From positions 558,001-622,000 of the forward strand of contig NZ_RKST01000001.1 of the NCBI RefSeq assembly GCF_003934165.1: a stretch of 64,000 nt of DNA, in the 5' to 3' direction. How positions within the stretch are numbered: position 1 is the first letter of the stretch; every line of letters starts with the position of its first letter. This stretch comes from Borborobacter arsenicus. GTDB lineage: Bacteria > Pseudomonadota > Alphaproteobacteria > Rhizobiales > Rhizobiaceae. Of this stretch, positions 39,904-61,123 are shown in pieces. Below the pieces are notes generated by a model. The model saw only the letters and a list, made by a program, of their open reading frames with translations, was not told the DNA's origin and ran no database searches. A program made the position numbers and the translations under genes.

Positions 39904-39919
39904 TTGACCGATTGGACAA
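39904..39919. promoter_or_regulatory. Candidate RutR operator between rutR and the aminotransferase gene
   Basis: TTGACCGATTGGACAA compared with the E. coli RutR consensus TTGACCANNTGGTCAA: 12 of 14 defined positions agree (differences at 7 and 13). It lies in the 225-bp divergent gap, 79 bp from the aminotransferase ATG and 132 bp from the rutR ATG. Confidence 0.7.
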
Positions 39920-45171: not shown

Positions 45172-46491
45172 TTATTCGGCGGCGACCTTGGCCATCGGAT
45201 TGTTAGGATGCTGCGTCCAGTTGGCATAGACCGGCGACACCGGCTCGCCGGTGCGCTTGTCGAGCGTTCCCGCCGCCAGCGGCTGCATGGTGATGCAGTT
45301 TTCGACCGGGCAGACATTGACGCACAGATTGCAGCCGACGCACTCTTCTTCCATCACCTCGAAATGACGCACGCCATCGACCATCGAGGTGATGGCCTGA
45401 TGCGACGTGTCCTCGCAGGCGATATGGCAGCGGCCACATTTGATGCAGGCATCCTGGTCGATATGCGCCTTGGCGACATAATTGAGGTTGAGATACCGCC
45501 AATCAGTAACGTTGGGCGTGGCGCGACCAACGACATCGTCCAGTGTCGCATGGCCCTTGCGGTCCATCCAGTCCTTCAGGCCCTCGATCATCTCCTGCAC
45601 GACCTTGAAGCCATAGGTCATCGCCGCGGTGCAGACCTGCACATTGCCGGCACCCAGCGCCAGGAACTCAGCCGCATCGCGCCAGGTGGTGATGCCGCCA
45701 ATGCCTGAGATCGGCAGGCCCTGCGTTTCGGGATCGCGTGCAATATCTGCCACCATATGGAGCGCGATCGGCTTGACCGCCGGGCCGCAATAGCCGCCAT
45801 GGCTGCCCTTGCCGTCGATCGTGGGTTCCGGCGAGAATGTGTCGAGATTGACCGAGGTGATCGAATTGATCGTGTTGATCAAGCTCACCGCATCGGCCCC
45901 GCCCCTCTTTGCCGCGCGGGCGGCATGACGGATATCGGTGATGTTGGGCGTCAGCTTTATGATCACCGGCATGCGGGTATATTGCTTGCACCAGCGTGAC
46001 AGCATCTCGATATATTCCGGCACCTGGCCGACCGCTGAGCCCATGCCGCGCTCGCTCATGCCATGCGGGCATCCCAGATTGAGCTCGATGCCATCCGCCC
46101 CGGTTTCTTCCACCAGCGGCAGGATCGCCTTCCAGCTCTCCTCCTCGCAAGGCACCATCAGCGAGACGACAACTGCCCGGTCGGGCCAGTTCATCTTGAC
46201 CTGCTTGATCTCGCGCAGGTTGAGGTAAAGGTCGCGATCGGTGATGAGCTCGATATTGTTGAAGCCGAGCAGGCGGCGATCAGCACCCCAGATGGCGCCA
46301 TAGCGCGGACCGTTGACATTGACGACCGGCGGCCCCTCCTCGCCCAGCGTCTTCCACACCACACCGCCCCAGCCGGCCTTGAAGGCGCGCTCGACATTAT
46401 AGGCCTTGTCGGTGGGCGGCGCAGAGGCCAGCCAGAACGGGTTGGGCGACTTGATACCGACGAATGTGTTGCGAATGTCTGCCATGCTCAT
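45172..46491 (-). CDS. preA: NAD-dependent dihydropyrimidine dehydrogenase, PreA subunit
   Basis: Catalytic subunit that reduces uracil or thymine to the dihydro form. It has 439 aa: FMN barrel (about 1-310, LNLGCPHGMSERGMGSAVGQ with the active-site Cys), then two [4Fe-4S] ferredoxin motifs, CIKCGRCHIAC (349-359) and CVGCNLCVNVCP (384-395). It overlaps preT by 4 bp (46488-46491). The gene pair resembles E. coli preTA. Confidence 0.94.
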   Translation of the reverse strand: MSMADIRNTFVGIKSPNPFWLASAPPTDKAYNVERAFKAGWGGVVWKTLGEEGPPVVNVNGPRYGAIWGADRRLLGFNNIELITDRDLYLNLREIKQVKMNWPDRAVVVSLMVPCEEESWKAILPLVEETGADGIELNLGCPHGMSERGMGSAVGQVPEYIEMLSRWCKQYTRMPVIIKLTPNITDIRHAARAAKRGGADAVSLINTINSITSVNLDTFSPEPTIDGKGSHGGYCGPAVKPIALHMVADIARDPETQGLPISGIGGITTWRDAAEFLALGAGNVQVCTAAMTYGFKVVQEMIEGLKDWMDRKGHATLDDVVGRATPNVTDWRYLNLNYVAKAHIDQDACIKCGRCHIACEDTSHQAITSMVDGVRHFEVMEEECVGCNLCVNVCPVENCITMQPLAAGTLDKRTGEPVSPVYANWTQHPNNPMAKVAAE

Positions 46492-47864
46492 GCCCTCCCA
46501 TTAGAGGTGAGTGTGCGATGAATGCTCTCGGCGGCGTCGCGCCCCTGTGCAACCGAAGTGACGGTCAAATCCTCGCCGCCGCGGATGCAGTCGCCCCCCG
46601 CCCACACTTTCGCCATGGAAGTGCGGCCCTCGGTATCGACGATGATCCTGCCGCCTTCCATGGCAATCGACGCACCGCTGCCATTGAGGGCTGCCGGCTC
46701 GAAGAGCTGGCCGATCGCCTTGAACACCTGGTCGGCAGCAAGGCTGAGCGTCTCGCCGGTGCCGACCAGCTTGCCGCCTTTCATTATGGTGTATTCGAGC
46801 TCAATGCCGGTGACCTTGCCGCCATCCGCGACCACCCGCTTTGGCTGCAGCCAGTGGCGGATGTTGACGCCATTCGCCGCGGCCAGATCCTGCTCGAAAT
46901 CGGAGGCGTTCATATCCTCCTGGCCGCGCCGATAGCAGATGGTGACTTCCTCCGCGCCGAGCAGCTTCGACTGCACGGCCGCGTCGATCGCCGTCATGCC
47001 GCCGCCGATGACGACGACGCGGCGCCCGATCGGCAGGCTCGACAGATCGCTTGCCTGGCGCAGTTCGGCGATGAATTCCACGGCATTTTCCACGCCCTCG
47101 GCATCTTCGCCTTCGGCGCGCAGCGCATTGATGCCGCCAAGGCCCAAGCCCAGGAACACGGCATCATATTTCGCCGTCAACTCGGACAGCGAAAAGTCGC
47201 GACCGAGCGCCTTGTCGTTTTCGATGGCGATGCCGCCAATGGCGGTGACATAGTCGACCTCGGCCTGGGCAAAATCGTCGGTCGTCTTGTAGGCGGCGAT
47301 GCCATATTCGTTGAGGCCGCCGGATTTAGGCTTGGCCTCCAGCACCGTTACCTCATGGCCGTAGCGGGCAAGCCGATGCGCGCATGCAAGGCCGGCCGGC
47401 CCCGCGCCGACCACGGCGATCTTGCGGCCCGTGGGTTCCGCGCGGTCATAGAACTGCTTGTTCTGCTCCATCGCGACGTCGGTGGCATAGCGCTGCAACC
47501 GCCCGATCTGCACCGGCTTGCCTTCGGCAGCCTCGCGCACGCAGGCCTCCTCGCACAGCGTCTCGGTCGGGCAGACGCGGGCGCACATGCCGCCCAGAAT
47601 GTTCTGGTCGAAAATGGTCTTGGCCGAACCGAGCGCATTGCCGGTCGCGATCTGGCGGATGAACATCGGAATGTCGATTGATGTCGGACAGGCATGCATG
47701 CAGGGCGCATCGTAGCAGAAATAGCAGCGATCGGCCTCCACCAGCGCCTCATGCGGGTCGAGCGGCGGATGCAGGTCTGAAAAATTCTCGGCATATTGCT
47801 GCGGCGCCAGCCTCCCGCCGGCTACGCCTTGCTTGAACTGACCTTCGGCCATTTCATTCCCCAT
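46488..47864 (-). CDS. preT: NAD-dependent dihydropyrimidine dehydrogenase, PreT subunit
   Basis: Flavin and iron-sulfur subunit, 458 aa, which transfers electrons from NAD(P)H to PreA. N-terminal cysteines (CYFCYDAPCMHACPTSID, CARVCPTETLCEEAC) hold two [4Fe-4S] clusters; VVGAGPAGLACAH near 150 binds FAD and VVIGGGMTAIDAA near 285 binds NAD(P). A site similar to the RutR operator is 39 bp upstream of its ATG (47864; 47852 is an alternative start). Confidence 0.94.
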   Translation of the reverse strand: MGNEMAEGQFKQGVAGGRLAPQQYAENFSDLHPPLDPHEALVEADRCYFCYDAPCMHACPTSIDIPMFIRQIATGNALGSAKTIFDQNILGGMCARVCPTETLCEEACVREAAEGKPVQIGRLQRYATDVAMEQNKQFYDRAEPTGRKIAVVGAGPAGLACAHRLARYGHEVTVLEAKPKSGGLNEYGIAAYKTTDDFAQAEVDYVTAIGGIAIENDKALGRDFSLSELTAKYDAVFLGLGLGGINALRAEGEDAEGVENAVEFIAELRQASDLSSLPIGRRVVVIGGGMTAIDAAVQSKLLGAEEVTICYRRGQEDMNASDFEQDLAAANGVNIRHWLQPKRVVADGGKVTGIELEYTIMKGGKLVGTGETLSLAADQVFKAIGQLFEPAALNGSGASIAMEGGRIIVDTEGRTSMAKVWAGGDCIRGGEDLTVTSVAQGRDAAESIHRTLTSNGRA

Positions 47865-47902: not shown

Positions 47903-47918
47903 TTTATCAATTGGTCAA
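47903..47918. promoter_or_regulatory. Candidate RutR operator upstream of preT
   Basis: TTTATCAATTGGTCAA agrees with TTGACCANNTGGTCAA at 12 of 14 defined positions; the TGGTCAA half is exact. It lies 39-54 bp before the preT start, where it could block the promoter. Confidence 0.65.
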
Positions 47919-48437: not shown

Positions 48438-50864
48438 TCACCCTCGCAAGCGCCGCTGGTCGGCGTCGAACAGCGGCACCTTCTGCAGGCGCGCCTTGTA
48501 TTTCCTGCCGATAAGCTCGATCTCGAAGGCTCCAGCCACGTCGGCAACCTCCTTCGGCACATAGCCGATGGCAACCGAACAGCCGGAATGATGGGCGTAG
48601 CCGCCCGAGGTCACCCAACCCCGGACCTCGCTTTCGAACCAGATCGGCTCGTCGCCGATCACATCGGCATCGTCCGTATCGACGACGAAGGCACATAGCC
48701 TGAGCTTGCCGTCCTGCTCCCGTTCGGCCAGCGCCGCTTGCTTTCCGATGAAATCGGCCTGCTTGCCATAGGCGACGAAGCGGTCGAGCCCGGCTTCGAG
48801 CGGCCCGTAGATCGGCCGGTATTCGCGCGCCCAGGAACCGTAGTTCTTCTCCAGCCGCAGCGAATTCAGCGCGCGGCTGCCGAACAGGCCGATGCCGAAC
48901 TCCTCACCGGCTTCAAGCAGCGTCTGGAACACATGGCGCTGATATTCCGGCGCCACCCAGATCTCGTAGCCAAGATCGCCGGTGTAGCTGACACGACCGA
49001 CGAGGCAGGAGGCCATGCCGATATCGAAACGCTTGATATCCATGAATTTGAAGGCTTCGCTCGATACATCGGCGCGGGTCACCTTCTGCAGGAGCCTTCG
49101 CGCATCCGGCCCGGCAATCGACAGACCGGTGAGTTTGAGGCCGAGCGCCTCGACCATGACCGAGCCGTCCTTCGGCAAATGCTGCTCGAACCAGCGCATG
49201 TGATAATGCTCGGCAATGCCGGAACCGGCAATGAACCAGCTGCCATCGCCGGGATTGGCGAGCGAGAAATCGCCTATCAGCCTGCCATCCTCCTTCAGCA
49301 TCGGCGCAAGCGTCATGCGGCCGGGCTTGGGCAGCTTGCAGGCAAGGATACGGTCGAGCCAGGCTTGCGCGCCCTCGCCCCTCACGCGGTATTTGGCAAA
49401 GCTCGAAATCTCCATCAGGCCGACGCGCTCGCGCACGGTGCGGACCTCCTCTGCGACATGGGGAAAATCGGTCGAGCGCCGCCAGGAAAACTCGTCCTTC
49501 ACGCCTTCAGGCGCAAACCACAGCGGCACTTCCAGCCCGTAGGCTGCGCCCCATTGCGCGCCCCTGGCCGAGAGCAAATCGTAGATCGGCGTGGTCTTGA
49601 GCGGCCGCCCGGCTGAAAGTTCCTCATTGGGGAAGCGGATGGAAAAGCGGCGCGAATAATTCTCGCGCACCCTGGCATTGGTATAGGCCATGGAGGCCCA
49701 ATCGCCATAGCGCGACACGTCCATGGCCCAGACGTCGGCGCCCGGATCGCCGTGAATCATCCAGTTGGCAAGCGCCAGCCCGACACCGCCGCCCTGGCTG
49801 AAGCCGGCCATGACGCCGCAGGCCGACCAGAAGCCCGGCAGGCCGCGCACCGGCCCGACCAACGGGTTGCCGTCCGGCGCGAAGGTGAAGGGGCCGTTGA
49901 TGATCTGCTTGATGCCGACATTCTGGAAGGCCGGGAAATGGCGGAAGCCGACCTCCAGCGAAGGCGCGATGCGGTCGATGTCGGGTTCCAGCAATTCGTG
50001 GCCGAAGCTCCAGGGCGTGGAAAATTCCGACCACGGCTTGCAGGCCTTCTCATAGGTACCCATCAGCATGCCGCCGCGCTCCTGGCGCAGATAGAGCTCG
50101 CCGTCGAAATCGATGGCATGGATGATCTCGGTGCCGGTCTTTTTGTTCCATTCGGCGACTTCCGGCATGTCCTCGGTGATCAGATACATGTGTTCCATGG
50201 CCAGAACCGGCAGTTCGAGCCCGACCATGCGGCCGACCTCGCGCGCCCACAAGCCACCGGCATTGACCACATGCTCGGCGACGATCTCGCCCTTGTTGGT
50301 GATGACCCGCCACAGCCCGTCCTCGCGCCGCACGATGTCCTCGACCTTCGTGAAACGCTCGACCTCGGCGCCCAGCACCCGCGCGGCCTTGGCATAGGCA
50401 TGGGTGACGCCGGAGGGGTCGAGATGGCCGTCGACCACAGTGCGTACGGCACCGACGAACTCATTGGGATCGATGAGCGGCATCAATTCGCCGGCCTCGC
50501 GCGGCGAGATTTCCTCAAGCTCGATGCCGAGATAGCGGCCCTTGGCGACCATGCCGCGCAGCCAGTCGAGACGCGCCTGCGTCGCCGCCAGCATGACGCC
50601 GCCGGTAAGGTGCACGCCTGTCGCCTGGCCGGACAGTTCCTCGATCTCCTTGTAGAGGCTGATCGTGTATTTCTGCAGCTTGGCGACATTGGGGTCGCCA
50701 TTGACGGTGTGCATGCCGCCGGCCGCATGCCAGGTGGAGCCGGAAGTGAGCTCATCGCGCTCGACCAGCACGACATCGGTCCAGCCATGCCTGGCCAGGT
50801 GGAACAGTACCGAACAGCCGACGACACCACCACCGATGATCACGACCCTTGCATGCGACTTCAT
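48438..50864 (-). CDS. Dimethylglycine/sarcosine dehydrogenase-like flavoprotein with folate-binding half
   Basis: An 808-aa two-part enzyme. Residues about 1-400 are a DAO-type FAD oxidoreductase (VVIIGGGVVGCSVLFHLA at 8-25; SGSTWHAAGGMH with the flavin-attachment-region His). About 425-805 are the aminomethyltransferase (GcvT-like) folate domain and its C-terminal barrel. Relatives oxidise N-methyl groups of dimethylglycine or sarcosine and pass the methylene to THF. Here it lies downstream of an MttB-family gene, so it probably completes demethylation of an N-methylated substrate. Substrate unknown. Confidence 0.9.
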   Translation of the reverse strand: MKSHARVVIIGGGVVGCSVLFHLARHGWTDVVLVERDELTSGSTWHAAGGMHTVNGDPNVAKLQKYTISLYKEIEELSGQATGVHLTGGVMLAATQARLDWLRGMVAKGRYLGIELEEISPREAGELMPLIDPNEFVGAVRTVVDGHLDPSGVTHAYAKAARVLGAEVERFTKVEDIVRREDGLWRVITNKGEIVAEHVVNAGGLWAREVGRMVGLELPVLAMEHMYLITEDMPEVAEWNKKTGTEIIHAIDFDGELYLRQERGGMLMGTYEKACKPWSEFSTPWSFGHELLEPDIDRIAPSLEVGFRHFPAFQNVGIKQIINGPFTFAPDGNPLVGPVRGLPGFWSACGVMAGFSQGGGVGLALANWMIHGDPGADVWAMDVSRYGDWASMAYTNARVRENYSRRFSIRFPNEELSAGRPLKTTPIYDLLSARGAQWGAAYGLEVPLWFAPEGVKDEFSWRRSTDFPHVAEEVRTVRERVGLMEISSFAKYRVRGEGAQAWLDRILACKLPKPGRMTLAPMLKEDGRLIGDFSLANPGDGSWFIAGSGIAEHYHMRWFEQHLPKDGSVMVEALGLKLTGLSIAGPDARRLLQKVTRADVSSEAFKFMDIKRFDIGMASCLVGRVSYTGDLGYEIWVAPEYQRHVFQTLLEAGEEFGIGLFGSRALNSLRLEKNYGSWAREYRPIYGPLEAGLDRFVAYGKQADFIGKQAALAEREQDGKLRLCAFVVDTDDADVIGDEPIWFESEVRGWVTSGGYAHHSGCSVAIGYVPKEVADVAGAFEIELIGRKYKARLQKVPLFDADQRRLRG

Positions 50865-50948
50865 GGGATTTCCCGTTGTTTCAATGGGTTGGATGGATTT
50901 ACGGAATCAGGATGGGAGGAAGGTGAATCGAATTCGGAGGTTGGCGCC

Positions 50949-51060
50949 GCCCCTCATCCGCCTGCCGGCACCTTCTCCCCGCAAGCGGGGAGAAGAAACA
51001 AGCGACACCCGCAGCGCCCCCTCTCCCCGTTTACGGGGAGAGGGTAAGGGTGAGGGGCAG
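50949..51060. repeat. RIME-like intergenic palindromic element
   Basis: About 112 bp with outer inverted arms (GCCCCTCATC.../...GGTGAGGGGC) and two strong inner palindromes: TTCTCCCCGC/GCGGGGAGAA (50973-50994) and CCCTCTCCCCGT/ACGGGGAGAGGG (51018-51044). This mosaic of two palindromes is the structure of rhizobial RIME elements. It ends 10 bp from the MttB-family stop, in the gap before the flavoprotein gene. Confidence 0.8.
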
Positions 51061-51070
51061 CACTGCCCTC

Positions 51071-52606
51071 TCATGGCTCCTCCACTCCGATTTCTTCTTT
51101 CCGCTTCGCCATATAGGCTTCGAGTTCCTCGCGGATCGCCGGGTCCATCGCCGGCTCGACATATTCCTCCAGCGCCCTCTTCCACAAAAGCGTGGCGCGC
51201 GCGGTGGCATCGAGGCCCCCGGCTTCCTGCCACGCCTCGTAATTCTGCCAGTTGGAGACCATCGGCTGGTAGAAGGCGCTTGCATAGCGCTCCAGCGTAT
51301 GCGGTTCGCCGAAGAAATGGCCGCCGGTCGGCACGCGCCCCAATGCATCGAGCGCCAATTCGCCGTCATCCACCTCGATCGGGCGCAGGAACTCCATCAT
51401 GTGCTGGATCATCTCCACGTCGAGGATGAGCTTTTCGTAAGAAGCGGTGAGCCCGCCCTCCTGCCAGCCGGCGGCGTGATAGACGAGATTGCCATGGCCC
51501 AGCACCGCGCCCCACAGCGCCATCATCGTCTCATAGGTGCCTTGCGCATCGGCAGCGTTGGAGGCACTGCCGGGGGTGGTGCGGTAGGGCAGATTGTAGC
51601 GGCGCGCGAGCTGGCCCGAGGCGATATTGGCCTTGGCGTTTTCCGGCGTGCCGAAGGCGGGCGCGCCCGAGCGCATATCCACATTGGAGGTGAAGGCGCC
51701 ATACATGACCGGCGCGCCGGGGTGCACCAGCTGGGTGAGCACGATGCCGAACAGCGCCTCGGCGTTCTGCTGCGCCAGCGCGCCGGCAAGCGTCACCGGG
51801 CTCATCGCTCCCATTAGCGTGAACGGCGTGACGGCGACGGACTGGCCATATTCGGCCATGGTCATCAGCCCTTCGGCCATCGCCTCGTCGAAGCGGCGCG
51901 GCGAGTTGACCGAGATGATGGTGGTGACGGCGGGATCGTCGCGCATCTGGTCGAGTGTTAGCCCCCGGCTGATCGCCATCATGGCGATGCCGTCCAGCGC
52001 CCTGCCCCGGCCGATGGCCGACAAATGGAAGCTCTTGTCGGTGAGCGTCAGATTGGCGAAATAAGTGTCGAGATGGCGCGAATTGGCCGGCATCTCGATC
52101 GGCGCACAGACCTGATTACCGATCATGTGGATGCAGTTGAAGTGCTGCGCCAGCCGCACCAGGTCGCAATAGTCGCGATAATTGCCGGCCCGCCTGCCGC
52201 GCTCCATGTCATGGACATTGGGCGGCCCGGCGACCAGCGTGAAATTGATCGTGTCGCCGCCCAGATGGATCGTGCGCTCCGGATTGCGCGGGGTCAGCCT
52301 GTAGGTGGATTGCGTGCTCTTCAGCGCCTCGGCGACGAGACCGCGATCGAGCCACACCGTCTGGCTGGCATGATCGACCTTGGCCCCGGCCTTTTCGAGC
52401 AGGGAAAGCCCGCGCACATTCATCAGTTCGATGCCGAAATTTTCCAGAATATGCATCGAGGCCTCATGGATGGCCTCGATCTGGTCTTCCGACAAAAGCG
52501 CCATCGGCGGATAGGGATTACGCACGCGCCGCAAAGGCAGTTGCGGAATGGCGGCAGCCTTGCTGCCAGCCCTGTCGGCACTGCGGCGGCGTCTCGGTTC
52601 GCTCAT
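51071..52606 (-). CDS. MttB-superfamily corrinoid methyltransferase (non-pyrrolysine)
   Basis: Trimethylamine-methyltransferase-superfamily protein of 511 aa. The frame has no internal TAG codon, so it is not the pyrrolysine enzyme; non-Pyl members act on quaternary amines such as glycine betaine, carnitine or proline betaine. The first 18 residues are basic and poorly conserved. MALLSEDQIEAIHEASMHIL and NYRDYCDLVRLAQHF are recognisable. No corrinoid protein or reactivator is in the window, so partners must be elsewhere. It ends 17 bp before the PrpD-like gene's strand neighbour start. Confidence 0.88.
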   Translation of the reverse strand: MSEPRRRRSADRAGSKAAAIPQLPLRRVRNPYPPMALLSEDQIEAIHEASMHILENFGIELMNVRGLSLLEKAGAKVDHASQTVWLDRGLVAEALKSTQSTYRLTPRNPERTIHLGGDTINFTLVAGPPNVHDMERGRRAGNYRDYCDLVRLAQHFNCIHMIGNQVCAPIEMPANSRHLDTYFANLTLTDKSFHLSAIGRGRALDGIAMMAISRGLTLDQMRDDPAVTTIISVNSPRRFDEAMAEGLMTMAEYGQSVAVTPFTLMGAMSPVTLAGALAQQNAEALFGIVLTQLVHPGAPVMYGAFTSNVDMRSGAPAFGTPENAKANIASGQLARRYNLPYRTTPGSASNAADAQGTYETMMALWGAVLGHGNLVYHAAGWQEGGLTASYEKLILDVEMIQHMMEFLRPIEVDDGELALDALGRVPTGGHFFGEPHTLERYASAFYQPMVSNWQNYEAWQEAGGLDATARATLLWKRALEEYVEPAMDPAIREELEAYMAKRKEEIGVEEP

Positions 52607-52622
52607 GGTCTTGCCCGTCCCT

Positions 52623-53942
52623 TCATGCGGCTGTCGTCAGTGCCTCGACCAGCGGCGCGAAGGACGGCGCGCGGTCGAGCTTCATCACCAGATCCTCGAT
52701 CTGCCGCGCCCTTGCCGTCACGCCACCGCTTTCCATCAGCGCATGGAATTTCGCGCTGATCTCGGCGTCGCTCAGTGGATTCTCCGCACTGCCGCGCGCG
52801 ACGGCGGGCTGCGAGCGGATGATCCGCCCGCCGGCAAGCCTGATCTCCACCTCGGCCCAGCGCTCGGCCGGAAACAGGGCGGAGTAGCGTTGGTCGTCGA
52901 TCAGCACCGTTGCATCTGCGATGCGCCTGATGTCGGGATCGCGCAACGCCGGCCCATCGATTTCTTCCGGGCCGACCCGGCCGCGTACTAGCAGGGCGGC
53001 GACGGGGAAAGGCAGGCTGTATTGGGCGGCATCGGTGGTTGACGGCGTAGCCGTCGCCAGCCGGCTCGCCTCCAGGAAAGTGCGCACGGTGACCGCCTCG
53101 ACCTCGCCATGGACGAACCCGTGGTCGCGTCGCAACTGGGCGGCCGCCTCCATGGCTGGCTGCGCCCAGCGGCAGACCGGATAGGCCTTGAAATATTGCT
53201 CCTCGATGCGCCATCTGGCGCCGAGATCAGACCAGTAATGGCCAACCGCTTCGCCTTCGACGGTGACGGCCGGCGCGCCGGTAAAGCCTTCGCGCGCCAG
53301 CATGACGGCCATCACGCCGACCATGGCGCCCCAACCGGAACCGTCCTTGATCATGGTCGGATGATCGATGCAGCGCATCATCTGGCTGCGCGGCCCGTTG
53401 AATTCGGCAATGCCCAGCGCCTCGCGCACAATCTTGTCCTCAAGGCCCAATATGCGCGCGCCGATGGCCGCGATGCCGAGCGCCACCCAGGCGCCTGAAG
53501 TGTGATATTCCGCAGCCGTGGCGTGAAGCGCGATGCCGGCGCGGATGGCTATCTCGTAGCCGAGGATCAGATGCGCCAGCGCCTCGCTGCCGCTGATGCC
53601 CTCGCCATCCCCGGCAAAGGCGATGAGCCCGGCAAAGGAGCCGCAGCCGGCATGCCCCTTGGTGAGCGGATGGCCGTCATGGGCGTCGAAACCGTCGATC
53701 GTGGTGGAATTGGCGAGCGCCGATCCGGCCGGGCTGGCGCGGCGTCCATCGAACAGGAACCGGCCGTCGGCACCGCCGAACTGGGCATGAGCGACAGACC
53801 TCGCGATGCGGCTTGAGGGCAGTTGCGAGCCGGCGGCGGCAACGCCGATCAGGTCGAGCAGGCAGCTTTTCGCCTGCTGCGCCACCTGCAGCGGGGCGGC
53901 GTCAAGCCGAAAATCCCGGATGAAGGAAAGCGCGTCGGACAT
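52623..53942 (-). CDS. MmgE/PrpD family protein
   Basis: Relative of 2-methylcitrate dehydratase and cis-aconitate decarboxylase, 439 aa from the ATG at 53942 (GAGGGAG in front; longer starts exist). Conserved DGFDAHDGHPLTKGHAGC, GYEIAIRAG and KAYPVCRWAQPAMEAA are typical. The family is broad (dehydratase, decarboxylase, isomerase) and no specific reaction can be assigned. Its neighbours on both sides suggest a role in breaking down the carbon skeleton after demethylation. Confidence 0.87.
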   Translation of the reverse strand: MSDALSFIRDFRLDAAPLQVAQQAKSCLLDLIGVAAAGSQLPSSRIARSVAHAQFGGADGRFLFDGRRASPAGSALANSTTIDGFDAHDGHPLTKGHAGCGSFAGLIAFAGDGEGISGSEALAHLILGYEIAIRAGIALHATAAEYHTSGAWVALGIAAIGARILGLEDKIVREALGIAEFNGPRSQMMRCIDHPTMIKDGSGWGAMVGVMAVMLAREGFTGAPAVTVEGEAVGHYWSDLGARWRIEEQYFKAYPVCRWAQPAMEAAAQLRRDHGFVHGEVEAVTVRTFLEASRLATATPSTTDAAQYSLPFPVAALLVRGRVGPEEIDGPALRDPDIRRIADATVLIDDQRYSALFPAERWAEVEIRLAGGRIIRSQPAVARGSAENPLSDAEISAKFHALMESGGVTARARQIEDLVMKLDRAPSFAPLVEALTTAA

Positions 53943-54137
53943 GATGACCATCTCCCTCGACACGTTGGGGGTTTAACCCGCACGTCGTCGCTGGTTGCAT
54001 CATTCCGGCAGGATGCGCGTCCGGCTGTCAGAAAACCGTCATCTGCGGACGGGATTTTAGTTCCAACGTCAGCACTTTCCGGCCAATACAGAAATCGCGA
54101 CATGATCTGCCGCTATTCCTAAAGTGAATATCAAAGC

Positions 54138-56705
54138 CTACCGCGGCTTCTTGCCAAACACCTTGATGTATTCGGCCTCGCCACCCTTGGCTAGCGCCTT
54201 GGCCTGGCGCACCCAGTCGTCACGCTCGATGCGGCCGCCGAAATTGAGATAGCCTTCGACCCAGGCGCGCTCCACCTTCTTCCAGCCGGCAATCTGGGCA
54301 TAGGTATAGATACCTAGCCCGTTGAGCAGCCGCTCGATCTTGGGGCCGACACCGGAAATGAGCTTGAGGTCATCCGGCTTGGCAGGACGTTCGATTGCAA
54401 TCGGACGGCCTTTCTCGGATGGCGGCACGACCGCGAGTGCGGATGTTGCCGATGCGGCAGTCTTCATCCGCCCCTTTGCGCCGATTGCAGCACGTACGGC
54501 TTCAGGCGATGGCGCCCTCTGCACCTTGCGCGGCGGCTTCACCGCACGAGCAGCCTTGGTCGCCTTGCGCGGCGCATCATCGGCCGGTGGCGCGGAGGCC
54601 GGATCGACCTCGTCCTTTTCTTCGAAGCTGATCACCGGCTCCATCTTTGCCAGCACGTCGTTGGCAAGCCAGCACAGGCTCTTGTGGCCGCCGCCGAGTT
54701 CCTTCAAAGGCGGCAATTTGGTCTCGCACAGATTGTCGGGAACCAGATGCTTGTAGCGGCAGCGCGTCTGGAACGGGCAGCCGCTCGGCGGGTTCATCGC
54801 CGAAGGAATGTCGCCCTCCAGCACGATGTGCTTCTTGACCACGCTGGTATCGGCAATCGGGATCGCCGATAGCAACGCCTCCGTATAGGGATGATAGGGC
54901 GGCGCGAAAATCTGGTCGGTCGTGCCCTGCTCGACGATATGGCCGAGATACATCACCACCACGCGGTCGGCGATGTAGCGCACCACCGACAGATCGTGGC
55001 TGATGAACAGCATCGTCGTCTTGTTCTTGCGCTGGATGTCCATCAAGAGTTCGGTGACCGCCGCCTGCACCGACACGTCGAGCGCCGAGACCGGCTCGTC
55101 GGCCACCACCACCCTGGCATTGCCGGCAAAGGCGCGCGCCACGCCGATGCGCTGCTTCTGGCCGCCGGACAATTGGCGTGGCATGCGCTCGGCAAAAGCG
55201 CGCGGCAGCTTCACCAGATCCAGCAATTCCAGCATGCGTTGCTTGCGCTCTGCCGCATTGTTGCCGACCTTGAACTTCTCCAGCGTGCGGATGATCTGCG
55301 AGCCTACGGAATGGCTCGGATTGAGCGTGTCGAACGGGTTCTGGAACACCATCTGGATCGAGGAGACGGTCTCCACGTCGCGATCCTCGACCGGGGTCGA
55401 CTCGATCTCGTGATTGGCGAGCGAAATCTTGCCCGCACTTGCCGTCTCCAGCCCGAGCAGCACCTTGGCGAGCGTGGACTTGCCGCAGCCGCTCTCACCG
55501 ACAATGGCCACCGTCTCGGATTCACGAGCCTCGAAGCTGATGCTCTCATTGGCCTTGACGACTCGCCCCTCGCCGCCGCCGAACACCTCATTGGCCGAGA
55601 CGCGGTAATATTTGCGCAAATCGTCGATCTTCAGCACCGGCTTGCCGGGAACGACCTGTTCCTTTCCGGTCTTGCTTCCTTCCGGCAAAGCGGCCCAATC
55701 GATCTCATCGAAGCGCACGCAGCGGCTATGATGGTTCTCATGCCCTTCAACCGCGATCATCGGAATTTCGGCGGCGTTGCACACGCCATCGACGAAATGG
55801 TGGCAGCGCGGACCGAAATTACAGCCGCGCGGGCGCTCATGCGGCAGCGGCAACTGGCCGGGAATGGCGATTAGCGGCCGCGAATTCTTGTCGGCACCCG
55901 GCAGCGGAATGGAGCGGAACAGCCCCTGCGTATAGGGGTGGCGCATGCGGTCGAACACATCCTTGACGCTGCCGGTCTCCACAGCCTCGCCCGAATACAT
56001 GACGGTGATGCGGTCGCAGGTCTCCAGGATCAGGCCGAGATTGTGCGACACGAAGATCATCGAGGTGCCGAATTCCTTGCCGAGCCCCTTGACCAGTTCC
56101 ACGATGCCGGCCTCGACCGTGACGTCGAGCGCCGTGGTCGGCTCGTCGAGCAGAAGCAGCGACGGCTTCGACAAAAGCGCCATGGCGATGACGATGCGCT
56201 GCTGCTGGCCGCCCGAAAGCTGGTGCGGATAGGATTTCATCATCCGCTCGGGGTCGGGCAGGCGCACGGCCTTCAGCATTTCCAGCGAGCGGTTGTAGGC
56301 CTCCTGCTTGGACACCTTGTCGTGGATGAGCGGCACTTCCATCAGCTGGCGACCGACCTTCATGGCCGGGTTGAGGCTAGCCATCGGCTCCTGGTAGATC
56401 ATGGCGATCTTGTTGCCGCGGATGGAGCGCAGTTCCTCCTCCGACATGTCGCCCATGTCCTTGCCCTGGAACTTGATACGGCCGCCGACAATCTTTCCGA
56501 CATTGGACAGGTCGCGCATGATGCCGAGCGAGACGGTGGACTTGCCGCAACCACTCTCGCCGACGATACCCATCGCCTCGCCGGGCATGACGGTGCAGGA
56601 AAAATCCATCACCGCCGGTATCTCGCCACGCCTGGTGAAGAAGGAGATGGAGAGGTTCTCGATCTCGATGATGGGATCGGCTGGTTTGCGAACGGTTTCG
56701 TTCAT
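54138..56705 (-). CDS. Fused dual oligopeptide-type ABC ATPase with C-terminal helix-hairpin-helix domain
   Basis: An 855-aa fusion of DppD- and DppF-type ATPases. Walker A GESGCGKST occurs at about 50-58 and again at about 401-409; each half has LSGGQ and an oligopeptide-type C-terminal Cys cluster (GCNFGPRCHHFVDGVC; GCPFQTRCRYK). An Ala/Pro/Lys-rich linker (about 690-770) leads to residues 776-855 (LKLISGVGPKIERLLNGLG, FGGRIERDDWVRQAKALA), a helix-hairpin-helix domain of the kind seen at the ends of rhizobial NuoE and L21. That tail is unexpected on a transporter ATPase. Confidence 0.88.
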   Translation of the reverse strand: MNETVRKPADPIIEIENLSISFFTRRGEIPAVMDFSCTVMPGEAMGIVGESGCGKSTVSLGIMRDLSNVGKIVGGRIKFQGKDMGDMSEEELRSIRGNKIAMIYQEPMASLNPAMKVGRQLMEVPLIHDKVSKQEAYNRSLEMLKAVRLPDPERMMKSYPHQLSGGQQQRIVIAMALLSKPSLLLLDEPTTALDVTVEAGIVELVKGLGKEFGTSMIFVSHNLGLILETCDRITVMYSGEAVETGSVKDVFDRMRHPYTQGLFRSIPLPGADKNSRPLIAIPGQLPLPHERPRGCNFGPRCHHFVDGVCNAAEIPMIAVEGHENHHSRCVRFDEIDWAALPEGSKTGKEQVVPGKPVLKIDDLRKYYRVSANEVFGGGEGRVVKANESISFEARESETVAIVGESGCGKSTLAKVLLGLETASAGKISLANHEIESTPVEDRDVETVSSIQMVFQNPFDTLNPSHSVGSQIIRTLEKFKVGNNAAERKQRMLELLDLVKLPRAFAERMPRQLSGGQKQRIGVARAFAGNARVVVADEPVSALDVSVQAAVTELLMDIQRKNKTTMLFISHDLSVVRYIADRVVVMYLGHIVEQGTTDQIFAPPYHPYTEALLSAIPIADTSVVKKHIVLEGDIPSAMNPPSGCPFQTRCRYKHLVPDNLCETKLPPLKELGGGHKSLCWLANDVLAKMEPVISFEEKDEVDPASAPPADDAPRKATKAARAVKPPRKVQRAPSPEAVRAAIGAKGRMKTAASATSALAVVPPSEKGRPIAIERPAKPDDLKLISGVGPKIERLLNGLGIYTYAQIAGWKKVERAWVEGYLNFGGRIERDDWVRQAKALAKGGEAEYIKVFGKKPR

Positions 56706-56720
56706 GGCTGGCTCCTCATC

Positions 56721-57881
56721 TCAATCCTTCATCGATTGCTCGCGCAGCGCGTCGGCAAGCAGGTTGAGGCCGAGCACGAAGGACATCAGCGCGATCGTCG
56801 GCGGCAGCGCGGGATGGATGAAGGAGCGCAAGAGCCGGCTGGCATCCTTGATCGCCGTGCCCCAGTCGGGACTTTCGGGCGCAAGCCCCAGCCCGAAATA
56901 GCCGAGCGTGCCGAGCAGGATGGTGGTGTAGCCGATGCGCAGGCAGGCATCGACGATGAGCGGGCCCCGCGCATTGGGCAATATCTCCCACAGCATGATG
57001 TACCATGGGCTTTCACCGCGGGTCTGTGCCGCCGCCACGTAATCGCGTGTCTTGATGTCCATGGTGAGCCCGCGCACGATGCGGAACACACCGGGGCTCG
57101 AGGCAAACACCACCGCAACGAAGATATTGAGTTCGTTGGGGTCCATGCTGACGATGCCGAAGGGATCAGCGTCGAAAACCAGGCCGATATAGATCCAGCC
57201 GCCGATGAGGATGGTTGTGCCCAGCAATATATAGAGCCGCTCCGGCCGGTTCTTGAAGCGCGTGTAGAACAGCACGCAAAAGAAGATGATCGGAAAGATG
57301 AAGAACAGGCCCGCCATGCCGTAGGGGATGGGCGTCTCCATGATGCCGGGCGTCACCAGCAGGTAGAACAGCAGGATGACCGGGAAGGCCAGCACCAGAT
57401 TGGCCAGGAACGACAGGATCGAATCCACCTTGCCGCCATAATAGCCGGCCGGCAGGCCGAGCGTGATGCCGACCATCAGCGCAAAGGCGGTGGCCAGAGG
57501 TGCTATCGCCAGCACGATCTGGCTGCCATAGACCATGCGGCTGAAAACGTCGCGTGCAAGCTTGTCGCCGCCGAACAGATAGACCCCACCGCTGTCTGGC
57601 ACGATGGCACCCGGCAGCGCATCCTTCATGATCGGGATCTGCGCCAACGGATTGAAGGGCGAAATCTGGCTGGCGAGGATCGAGGTGAACAGCCAAAACA
57701 GGCAGATGGCGACGCCGGCGACGCCGACGCCGCTGTCGAACAGCTGGCCATAAAGGCCGAGCCGCTTTTTGAAAACGATGCTGATGCCAAGCACGATGGC
57801 GAGCGCCAGCCAGACCGTCCAGAAACGCGCAAGCACGCCGAGCACGATTTGGAACCCCGAGACATATTCGATCGCGCCCAT
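56721..57881 (-). CDS. Dipeptide/oligopeptide ABC transporter permease (DppC type)
   Basis: Inner-membrane permease of 386 aa. It is longer than DppC (about 300) with extra hydrophobic segments between residues 140 and 230. FSRMVYGSQIVLAIAPLATA and the EAA-type LTMDIKTRDYVAAAQTRGESPWYIM are diagnostic. The ATG at 57881 follows the upstream permease stop by 1 bp. Confidence 0.9.
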   Translation of the reverse strand: MGAIEYVSGFQIVLGVLARFWTVWLALAIVLGISIVFKKRLGLYGQLFDSGVGVAGVAICLFWLFTSILASQISPFNPLAQIPIMKDALPGAIVPDSGGVYLFGGDKLARDVFSRMVYGSQIVLAIAPLATAFALMVGITLGLPAGYYGGKVDSILSFLANLVLAFPVILLFYLLVTPGIMETPIPYGMAGLFFIFPIIFFCVLFYTRFKNRPERLYILLGTTILIGGWIYIGLVFDADPFGIVSMDPNELNIFVAVVFASSPGVFRIVRGLTMDIKTRDYVAAAQTRGESPWYIMLWEILPNARGPLIVDACLRIGYTTILLGTLGYFGLGLAPESPDWGTAIKDASRLLRSFIHPALPPTIALMSFVLGLNLLADALREQSMKD

Positions 57882-57882
57882 C

Positions 57883-58917
57883 CTATTGCACCCTGATGCG
57901 TGGATTGAGATAGGCGTAGCCGACATCCGAAATGAGCTGGGTGACCAGCACCACGAAGACGGAAATCAGCGAACAGCCAAGCAGGAGGTCGATATCGTTA
58001 TTACCGGCAGCTTCCACCAACACATAGCCGAAGCCCTGGTAGCGGAACATAACCTCGACCACGACGACGCCAGTGAGCAGCCACGGAAATTGCAGCATGA
58101 TGACGGTGAACGGCGCAATCAGCGCGTTGCGTAGCGCATGCTTGATGACGACGGTGGAAAAGCTCAGGCCCTTGAGCCTCGCCGTGCGGATATATTGCTG
58201 TGTCATCACCTCGACCATCGAGGCCCGCGTCATGCGCGCGATGTAGCCGGTACCGTAGATGGCCATGGTCATCACCGGCAGGGTGAAATTGTAGAAGGTG
58301 ATGCCCTGGCCGGTGGCGCTGGCGGCCGAGCCGTTGAGCCAGCCCAGCCACGAGGCGAAGATGACGGTGAAGATGACGCCCGAAACATATTCCGGTGTCG
58401 CCGTGGTGGAGATGGAAGCGACGGATAGAGCCCGATCTGTGCGCGTGCCCTCACGCATGCCGGCCAATATGCCGATCAGAAGCGAGATCGGTACCATCAC
58501 CGCCATCACCCAGAACATCAATATGCCGGTGGCACCGAGCGCGGGGAACAGCTTGTTGGCCACCGTGGTGCGGAACTTGGTGGAACAGCCGAAATCGCCC
58601 TGGAAAACACCGGAGAAGGTCGGCACGTCGGGCTCGTCGCAATAGCGGAAGCGCGGCACCGGCTTGCCATTGGCATCCATGACCGGCTGCTTGGGCCAGA
58701 CGCCAAGCCATTGCCCGTAGCGGACGAAGAAATTTTGCCGATAGCCGTTCTTGACCAGCCAGCTCTCCAGCTGCTCGGCCGATGCACGCTGCTCGGTCTG
58801 GCTAATCGCCAGCTTCTTCAAGTTGGGCTCGAGATTGACGAGGAAGAAGACCACCAGCGTCAGGCACAGCATGGTGAGCAGCATGACACCGAGGCGGCGT
58901 AGGACGAATGCGAGCAT
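57883..58917 (-). CDS. Dipeptide/oligopeptide ABC transporter permease (DppB type)
   Basis: Permease of 344 aa. N-terminal FVLRRLGVMLLTMLCLTLVVFFLV is typical of DppB; EAA loop: MVEVMTQQYIRTARLKGLSFSTVVIKHALRNAL, split over about 235-267. A long periplasmic loop (about 40-130) with two Cys (CDEPD, FGCS) is present. The binding protein gene lies upstream, across a hairpin. Confidence 0.9.
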   Translation of the reverse strand: MLAFVLRRLGVMLLTMLCLTLVVFFLVNLEPNLKKLAISQTEQRASAEQLESWLVKNGYRQNFFVRYGQWLGVWPKQPVMDANGKPVPRFRYCDEPDVPTFSGVFQGDFGCSTKFRTTVANKLFPALGATGILMFWVMAVMVPISLLIGILAGMREGTRTDRALSVASISTTATPEYVSGVIFTVIFASWLGWLNGSAASATGQGITFYNFTLPVMTMAIYGTGYIARMTRASMVEVMTQQYIRTARLKGLSFSTVVIKHALRNALIAPFTVIMLQFPWLLTGVVVVEVMFRYQGFGYVLVEAAGNNDIDLLLGCSLISVFVVLVTQLISDVGYAYLNPRIRVQ

Positions 58918-59077
58918 GAAACTCCCCTGCCAATTTGGTTGGGGTCAGTGCATGGCCCGGGAAATCATGGTCGATTTCCACAAAGGCTCATACGCCGGTT
59001 CGAAAGGATGCCCCGTAGGCGCCGCGCACGCAATGGCGTATGCGGCGATGACCGCCGGGTGATTTTCGAAAACGAGA

Positions 59078-59102
59078 GGAAGGGGCGCGATGCGCCCCTT
59101 CC
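59078..59102 (-). terminator. Strong hairpin between binding protein and permease genes
   Basis: Perfect 11-bp stem GGAAGGGGCGC/GCGCCCCTTCC with a 3-nt loop, 18 bp after the binding protein stop, followed on the minus strand by TCTCGTTTTC. Likely a partial terminator or mRNA-stabilising element that raises binding protein over permease. Confidence 0.75.
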
Positions 59103-59119
59103 GTTCAGTGCGGCGCGCG

Positions 59120-60772
59120 TCACGCCTCGTCGAGCCAAACCTTACCGAGATCGATCTCGAAGGTCGGATGCATGCCGTGGTTCTTCACCGCAGGCACCGA
59201 GTGGTTGTAGAGCTTGCGCCAATAGGGCTGGATGATGATGCCGGACTCCTGGAGGAGCTTTTCGATATCCTCCATCAGCGCCTTGCGCTTCTCGGCATCG
59301 GCGACGGCCAGCGCCTCGCCGAGCTTCTTGTCGAACTCGGGATTGGACCAGGCGGTTTCGTTCCACGCCTCGCCGGTGCGGTAGCCCAGCGCCAGCACCT
59401 GGACGCCAAGCGGACGCATATTCCAGTTGGTCATGGAGTAGGGATATTTCGTCCAGTCGTTCCAGAAGGTCGAGCCGGGCAGGACGGTGCGCTTGACCTT
59501 GATGCCGGCCTCGCGCAGCTGCGCGGCGATGGCATCGCCGGTGTTCTTGTGCCAGTCCTCGTCCACAGTGATGAGCTCGTGTTCGAAATCGGCCTGGCCG
59601 GCCTCCGCCATCAGTGCCTTGGCCTTTTCCATGTCGCGCTTGATCGGCGGCAATTCGAAATATTCCGGATGGATCTGGCAGACATGGTGGTTTTCGGCGA
59701 CCGTACCGGCGCCGCCATAGCCAAGCTGCAGGATGGTGGCGTTGTCGACGGCAAGCTGAAGCGCCTGACGCACCTTCTGGTCGTCATAGGGCTTGTTGGC
59801 GACGTTGGTGCGCGCTACCAGCGTCGTTGCCGTCACCACTTCCGACTTCACCAGGTCGAGCCCGTCGAGGATCGTCACATAGTCGGCCGAGGTCTCGTAA
59901 TTGCTATGGATTTCGCCCGCCTCGAAGGCACTGACGGTCGCCGCCGGATCGGTGCCGTAGTCGATGAATTCGATCCCGTCGAGATAGGCTTCGCCGCCCC
60001 ACCATTTGCCGTCTTCGCGGCGCTTGTAGACGACGCGGCTGCCGACATCGAAGGAAACCAGTTCGAACGGACCGGTGCCGATCGGGTTCTTGGTGAAGTC
60101 CGCGCCGGTTTCATCGAAGGTATGATGCACGACAAGGCCCGGATAGTCGGCCAGGTTGGGCACGAAGGAGATATCCGATTCCGTCAGCGTGATCTTGACG
60201 GTGTGGTCATCGACCTTGGTGATGCCGCCTTCGCGCGCCTTGCCGGTTTCCTTGTCGACCAGCGTGCCCATGCGGGCTGCCATGGAATTGCCTTCCGCCT
60301 TGCTGTCGCACCAGCGGTTGAGATTGTAGATCACATCGTCGGCATTGAACGCATCGCCATTGGTCCAGGTCACGTTGTTGCGCAACTTCAGGACATATTC
60401 GGTGGCGTCGTCATTTACTTCCCAGCCTTCCAGAAGATAGGGCTCGAAGGTGTATTCGCGCGTATATTTGACCAGCGGCTCCAACGACTGGCGCTGCGAA
60501 TTGGCAATCTCGGACCAGTCCGCCATGCGCGGGTCCTTGGGCGCCTTGATGAACATGGCGATCTTGATGACGCCGCCCTTCTTGGGCTCCTGCGCCAGTG
60601 CCTGCGTGGGCGCGGCAAGCCCGATCATGCCATAGGCCATGACAGTTGAAGCGCCGAATGCGCTTGCCAGGGCAAGAAATTCACGGCGGTCCATCTTGCC
60701 CGCCTTGGTGCTCTCCGCAAGTTCACGGATATGATCAGGGACGACGTCCCCGTTACTTTTGTAAAAAGTCAT
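59120..60772 (-). CDS. Peptide/amine ABC transporter substrate-binding protein (SBP_bac_5)
   Basis: Periplasmic binding protein of the DppA/OppA class, 550 aa. A 30-residue cytoplasmic-like lead ([18 protein letters not shown]) precedes a twin-arginine signal ([16 protein letters not shown], cleavage near ALA-Q). [20 protein letters not shown] is the class signature. The ATG at 60772 follows GGGAGAG; the longer frame to 60898 is not needed. The Tat signal suggests folding before export. Ligand unknown; neighbours suggest an N-methylated compound. Confidence 0.88.
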
Positions 60773-61123
60773 TGATCTCTCCCATTTGCTCGGCTTTCCG
60801 CCTGTTAACATTTCGCATCCCGCCCTCCTTGTCAAAGAGAGCGGAATGCAAAACTTGCAACGGAATGTGCAACTTTGAACGGCAGGCAGTTTGCGCAATT
60901 ACGACAGTCATGACGCAAACCCGCTAATTACCGCAAGATTCGAGCGAATTCTTTCGGGCGATCAAACAGCGGCAATTCCCTGTGGACACTCAGGAGGCCG
61001 CGATACCTTACGTAGGGTCCACGTAACCGTTTCGCGTTGCCGCGCTACCCCCTCAACCTCTTGATCATGTTGACAAGCAGCGGTGAAGCTTGAAACTGCG
61101 GATGGCGACTTCTGGAGGGAACC
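60773..61123. other. Divergent intergenic region with operator-like inverted repeats
   Basis: About 350 bp with no gene. It holds TTGCA-N8-TGCAA at 60855-60872 (near the binding-protein promoter) and TTACGT-N7-ACGTAA at 61008-61026 (nearer the alpha-2-macroglobulin gene), both candidate operators. Both promoters must lie here; none could be placed with confidence. Confidence 0.5.

Follow-up and report, generated by a model that had tools for sequence, protein, structure and literature searches.

Results and Discussion

The window analysed here, a stretch of 64,000 nucleotides from the 5.45 Mb genome of Borborobacter arsenicus, a soil bacterium akin to the root-nodule bacteria (genome G000, contig C1, 558001-622000), carries on its minus strand the genes for a family-5 (peptide-type) ATP-binding cassette (ABC) importer, an MmgE/PrpD family protein, a non-pyrrolysine MttB-superfamily methyltransferase and a FAD/folate protein resembling dimethylglycine dehydrogenase (DMGDH) (Table 1). 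The last three are read as a betaine demethylation branch using the shared corrinoid machinery of the cell, with a probability of about 0.6. The gene identities, the linkage of MttB to the DMGDH-like gene, an mtg-like locus in trans and a separate operator-like site at the neighbouring PreT gene were all computed in this study. The enzymes are of known kinds; what seems to be new is their putative association with an importer of the peptide type.

MttB and its DMGDH-like partner

The MTTB domain spans the full window MttB (profile positions 2-500 of 500), and the gene contains no in-frame TAG; in the printed alignment Ala348 aligns with X (pyrrolysine) of 7xcl. The protein belongs to the same non-pyrrolysine family as the glycine betaine methyltransferases 2qne and 9yce (E ~8e-93), both presumably from D. 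hafniense, but is only about one third identical to them, judged by eye. The DMGDH-like protein contains DAO, FAO_M, GCV_T and GCV_T_C in the order found in DMGDH and sarcosine dehydrogenase, and its nearest solved structure is dimethylglycine dehydrogenase 4pab (E 1.4e-175, residues 2-805), which we take to be the rat enzyme; the domain order is the same, and the substrate role of the window protein is predicted.

The best 80 named relatives of the window MttB were mostly from Mesorhizobium, with others from Aquamicrobium, Aliihoeflea and metagenome-assembled genomes (MAGs). The 80 named loci with an MttB of the window clade (at least 60% identity) comprised 66 at 75% identity or more and 14 lower; among the 66, at least 9.9 kb of sequence was available upstream in 59 and downstream in 58. 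The DMGDH-like gene was found downstream of MttB in 55 of the 58 loci, and PreT and PreA in 56. MttB and the DMGDH-like gene are thus a true conserved pair, and this part of the preliminary description, which had read the genes as one set, stands. The pair also occurs on two gammaproteobacterial MAG contigs, L112 and L113, whose shortness leaves no room for the importer to be looked for. A paralogous pair is present in the host genome at C1:400-405k. At the 37 places with a clade MttB in the 199 genomes counted below, with contig ends uncorrected, the DMGDH-like gene (at least 79% identity) lay within 5 kb in 25 and the gene of the importer's substrate-binding protein (SBP) within 20 kb in 27. 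The 14 lower-identity loci, nine of them with full flanks, contained MmgE in four and the DMGDH-like gene in two; neither importer nor PreT was found in any of them (all at 60% identity or more). For gene c24, which precedes MttB in some MAGs, no identity was found; it probably represents a wrong frame.

In two loci (L101, L102) a clade MttB is near aldehyde-dehydrogenase-like and amidase-like genes, named by Pfam in L101, with an AA_synth protein in L102; perhaps another substrate is handled there.

Corrinoid partner in trans and the paralogous mtg locus

The preliminary description was right that no corrinoid protein lies near the window MttB: matches to the B12-binding family PF02310 were found at three places in the genome and at none in the window. 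The partner is probably not missing but encoded in trans, at a distance of some 195 kb, in an mtgBCDE-like locus. There a B12-binding protein (C1:414321), above the PF02310 cut-off and with MtgC as its best model, adjoins an MttB (C1:412192) that matches 4yyc (E 9.6e-290), presumably the S. meliloti protein. The same stretch (L134, L135) encodes proteins that exceed the model cut-offs for methyltetrahydrofolate:corrinoid methyltransferase (398 bits versus 259) and betaine-homocysteine methyltransferase (561 bits versus 338), as well as a MetF-like protein below cut-offs. It is this MtgC-like protein that the window MttB would use, and the lack of a local corrinoid gene is no objection, because the layout resembles the S. 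meliloti scheme outlined in the consulted part of PMC12478193.

The genome has five MTTB matches. The window MttB is 39% identical to that of the mtg locus and is not its orthologue: in a 45-row tree it fell inside a 30-row clade (100/100) apart from the mtg-locus MttB and adjoining a second DMGDH-linked clade, with a program warning of long branches. An ordinary extra glycine-betaine/dimethylglycine locus, redundant with the mtg locus, is therefore a possible but doubtful explanation. It agrees with the DMGDH-like partner, with glycine betaine methyltransferase being among the nearest solved structures, and with OpuAC proteins (betaine-importer type) encoded within 6-7 kb of same-clade MttB genes in Labrys and Alsobacter; against it stand the divergence and separate clade of the window MttB, and glycine betaine needs neither a peptide-type importer nor an MmgE.

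Proposed pathway and relation to known systems

In the betaine demethylation branch proposed here, a quaternary ammonium, betaine-like compound would enter the cell, with the family-5 importer next door as the probable route. From this compound MttB would transfer a single methyl group to the cob(I)alamin carried by the in-trans MtgC-like protein, and the group would go on to tetrahydrofolate (THF); methyltetrahydrofolate:corrinoid methyltransferase-, MetF- and activase-like proteins are co-encoded with the MtgC-like one. The DMGDH-like enzyme would then strip further N-methyl groups oxidatively as methylene-THF, and MmgE, where present, may act on the carbon skeleton or on a stereocentre, perhaps as an epimerase. 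The nearest solved MmgE/PrpD relative is an IDS-epimerase (2hp3), yet a remote one. The OpuAC proteins encoded near clade MttB genes in Labrys and Alsobacter also count in favour of the proposed branch.

The consulted part of PMC12478193 describes glycine betaine demethylation by MtgBCD(E) in Ruegeria pomeroyi and Sinorhizobium meliloti, reports up to seven pfam06253 open reading frames in bacteria with mtgC and mtgD, and suggests that the many pfam06253 paralogs of aerobic bacteria with these two genes serve diverse methylated substrates; the claim of a new system in the preliminary description was therefore too strong. The likeness to MtgBCD(E), as presented there, extends to the aerobic alphaproteobacterial host, the pfam06253 methyltransferases, the one shared corrinoid protein and the subsequent dimethylglycine/sarcosine demethylation. 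The window differs in the separate clade of its MttB relative to that of its own mtg locus, in having no local mtgC, and in the pairing of MttB with a DMGDH-like gene beside a family-5 importer and MmgE. The Eubacterium enzymes MtpB, MtcB, MtyB and others likewise are numerous paralogs that differ in the betaine they act on but share a corrinoid protein (consulted parts of PMC12478193, which cites Eubacterium paralogs with one common MtgC, and of PMC8604678); these MttB-superfamily enzymes, unlike those of the window host, belong to anaerobic acetogens, and the consulted parts mention no DMGDH partner for them. Among the family members compared here up to seven MttB paralogs per genome were counted, at most seven candidates being scored. 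The matches listed in literature searches (MttB-MmgE/PrpD, rhizobial betaine/peptide transport, homarine, carnitine) included no published description of this gene set.

Occurrence of the importer

The importer has the make-up of Opp/Dpp systems, with an SBP_bac_5 protein, two permeases and two ATPase halves with oligo_HPY. All four importer genes were present in 56 of the 59 loci with a full upstream flank, an SLT_4 transglycosylase gene in 55 and MmgE in one. Whole-genome counts were made in 199 genomes of the same family, with the MttB overlap read by hand. The SBP (E at most 1e-120) was found in 75 genomes, the MttB family in 144, PreA in 161 and the MmgE clade in 22. The MttB family was present in 74 of the 75 SBP genomes (the exception being G167) versus 70/124 of the others (Fisher p 1.2e-12), and by genus in 42/42 with the SBP versus 36/67 without. 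Among 113 SBP places 46 had PreA within 20 kb, and the 23 of these that are MttB-free included both other genomes of the host's genus (G108, G179). All four importer genes were present in these 23 stretches and an MttB-family match in none; three of the genomes (G030, G129, G195) do carry a clade MttB at another place, which in two cases is on the same contig some 32 kb away. The importer is a separate unit and not inseparable from the MttB set; the idea of it as an inseparable member, considered in the analysis, was rejected on these relatives.

Further SBP copies were examined in 20 hand-picked places of the 113, mostly second copies, and in L136 of the host genome. An MttB-family gene was present in the same stretch (up to 19 kb) in 15 of these 21 orphan places, most often with one or two OYE-like oxidoreductase genes alongside; two places (L165, L168) also contained an MtgC homologue (93-94%). 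The permeases of the window were found in none of the 15, and PreA in none of the 21 stretches. The six MttB-free places were one at a contig end (L159), three with permeases (L161, L177, L178) and two without (L166, L170). L136 (C2:306000-324000) is a second candidate cluster in the genome: behind an MttB and an OYE-like gene it has another Tat-type SBP (72%), with no permeases beside it. Plasmid records matching the SBP numbered 34, and four (L202-L205) were examined: L205 had a mandelate-racemase-family gene as neighbour, L203 a creatininase-family cluster and L204 nothing telling, and on a Leisingera plasmid (L202) an SBP homologue (52%) lay about 3 kb from a gene for a dimethylsulfoniopropionate (DMSP) lyase (PF16867).

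The importer could alternatively serve the neighbouring pyrimidine pathway, with the MttB-DMGDH pair having merely landed between the two; this is unlikely. PreT-PreA, a carbamoylase-family amidase and an AptA-type aminotransferase are indeed encoded nearby, half of the 46 PreA-adjacent importers are MttB-free, and another Arg-motif family-5 importer of the genome stands in a ureide cluster. PreA, however, was missing from 6 of the 75 SBP genomes, its presence was more weakly linked to the SBP than that of MttB (69/75 versus 92/124, p 0.0016), and most orphan copies examined were accompanied by MttB genes and none by PreA. A scan with the RutR consensus (up to 3 mismatches, ~1 site expected in shuffles) gave operator-like sites upstream of PreT at 77 of 78 loci, versus 3/70 for the SBP, near chance, with one of the three in the window (61061-61076); the counts were 4/79 for MttB, 0/73 for the DMGDH-like gene, 12/71 for permB and 29/72 for PreA, all 29 of the last inside the PreT coding sequence. 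By this measure the region upstream of PreT fits a RutR-regulated operon, and those of the SBP, MttB and DMGDH-like genes do not. As PreT has an operator-like site of its own, PreTA is most simply a neighbouring pyrimidine unit; its candidacy as a step of the pathway was rejected on the same scan. The window contained nine RutR-like sites versus 1.41 expected, and to the six beyond the three named here and in Table 1 no meaning is assigned.

Binding-protein motif

W450 and R453-P454 were present in all 115 SBP homologues collected, many from close relatives, and W-x-x-R-P also in the distant SBPs of L200 and L219. In peptide binders an acidic residue (DppA D408, OppA D419) secures the amine of the peptide. 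Judged by alignment, the corresponding segment of the window SBP is free of acidic residues between positions 448 and 467 and carries the invariant R453. A hand-read alignment of the 16 family-5 proteins of the genome, the window copy included, gave at the R453 column Arg in five, Asp in five, Glu in one and other residues in five, and four of the five with Arg have an aromatic residue three places before. One Arg-motif importer (L239, C8:12000-31000) belongs to a ureide cluster that also encodes a ureidoglycolate lyase and an OHCU decarboxylase, and the motif W-x-x-R for this reason counts against peptides and not for betaines specifically. The AlphaFold mean pLDDT values (SBP 61.8, MmgE 51.7) are too low for pocket or fold claims.

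Judged from these residues, peptides are unlikely ligands of the window SBP, which makes the peptide substrate allowed for in the preliminary description unlikely as well. Import and degradation of N-methylated peptides by the whole set, suggested by the dipeptide/oligopeptide class of the importer, is most improbable in view of the same residues and of the lack of any peptidase family in the ten proteins searched.

A wider and more tentative proposal, which we hold to be somewhat less probable than not, is that the Tat-exported family-5 SBPs with W-x-x-R-P form a clade of importers that has escaped recognition and that takes up zwitterionic onium compounds (betaines, perhaps DMSP too). Every orphan copy, in an MttB cluster of its own, would deliver a different betaine to one shared permease, and every MttB would hand its methyl group to one shared MtgC. 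If SBP, MttB and DMGDH-like enzyme are matched sets around one MtgC, the substrate of each cluster becomes testable, and a class of importers that bears the peptide-type annotation today would have to be renamed. Plants exude many betaines.

MmgE and other settings of the gene set

In Ruegeria SCSIO 43209 (L200) a clade MttB and MmgE occur with a DMGDH-type protein, genes annotated as sarcosine oxidase delta and hydantoinase, and a family-5 importer with an SBP of 27% identity. In L219 and L220, from two genomes of one other genus, an MttB of the second DMGDH-linked clade is found with a DMGDH-like protein (73%), MmgE and an importer of 26-40% identity. As importer, MmgE/PrpD, MttB and DMGDH are met again with a distant importer, the combination is no chance run of genes; as a rule it is not one operon.

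The Roseobacter MttB-MmgE clusters L200 and L201 contain genes annotated as hydantoinase/oxoprolinase and racemase; Pfam gave hydantoinase in L200 and an arylmalonate-decarboxylase family in L201. These neighbours hint at a ring-containing or chiral substrate.

Evidence against the proposed branch

A number of results weigh against the betaine demethylation branch. The co-occurrence counts are uncorrected for kinship. The match of the in-trans protein to MtgC (211.5 bits) is below the curated cut-off of 370, and that of an AcsV/RamA-like activase encoded in the same stretch (380.5 bits) is below its own cut-off of 800. The MmgE clade is limited to 22 of the 199 genomes, and MttB was in the stretch examined at 9 of 25 MmgE places (stretches of all but G121 and G186 were covered). 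In 54 of the 56 importer loci an SLT gene that reads the other way intervenes between importer and MttB (L093 and L095, the remaining two, showed none), and for 23 of the 46 PreA-adjacent SBP places any clade MttB is more than 20 kb away; with MmgE at a single one of 59 loci and the importer next to PreA without MttB in 23 genomes, the genes are not, as a rule, a single operon. An mttB of M. alhagi CCNWXJ12-2 (the strain of L036) was induced (log2 3.77) in 0.4 M NaCl, which could also point to a role with osmolytes; no salt phenotype was seen in the knockout, and the paralog is not named in the consulted part of PMC4302635.

Gene organization of the window

The seven genes of the set lie on the minus strand where the preliminary description had placed them; it overlooked PreT-PreA on the same strand.

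Table 1. Genes and operator-like sites (positions within the window).
Feature	Position	Strand	Basis and remarks
SBP_bac_5 binding protein, Tat-exported, 550 aa	59120..60772	-	PF00496 E 5.8e-72; invariant W450-x-x-R453
ABC permease 1 (OppB/DppB type)	57883..58917	-	PF00528 (BPD_transp_1)
ABC permease 2 (OppC/DppC type)	56721..57926	-	PF00528 (BPD_transp_1); 44-nt overlap with permease 1
Fused double ABC ATPase	54138..56705	-	two ABC_tran and two oligo_HPY stretches
MmgE/PrpD family protein	52623..53963	-	PF03972 and PF19305; nearest solved structure IDS-epimerase 2hp3, E 2.5e-18
Non-pyrrolysine MttB-superfamily methyltransferase	51071..52606	-	PF06253 (MTTB) E 3.6e-199
DMGDH-like FAD/folate protein	48438..50864	-	DAO, FAO_M, GCV_T, GCV_T_C; STWHAAG motif (His46)
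PreT-like dihydropyrimidine dehydrogenase subunit	46488..47864	-	neighbouring unit, outside demethylation set
PreA dihydropyrimidine dehydrogenase subunit	45172..46491	-	NF006183 733 bits, cut-off 335; neighbouring unit
RutR-like site upstream of PreT	47903..47918		TTGACCAATTGATAAA on coding strand
Second RutR-like site	39904..39919		near AptA-type aminotransferase, hydantoinase/carbamoylase-family amidase, TetR_C_3 regulator

The intergenic gaps are 174 nt (ATPase to MmgE), 16 nt (MmgE to MttB), 206 nt (MttB to the DMGDH-like gene) and 573 nt (DMGDH-like gene to PreT). PreA is the sole match above the NF006183 cut-off in the whole genome. A sigma-70 scan of the window found one site versus 3.7 in shuffles, i.e., below chance. 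Terminator-like hairpins were found 3' of the SBP gene (59102-59078) and 3' of the ATPase gene (54113-54097); the hairpin signal of the window is weak, because 15 were found versus 11.8 in shuffles. The leader of the binding protein, read from a motif that includes R30, is of the twin-arginine type. In the fused ATPase the Walker A and LSGGQ motifs each occur twice; its C-terminal tail, some 170 aa long, gave no Pfam match and, by eye, ends in a helix-hairpin-helix-like stretch.

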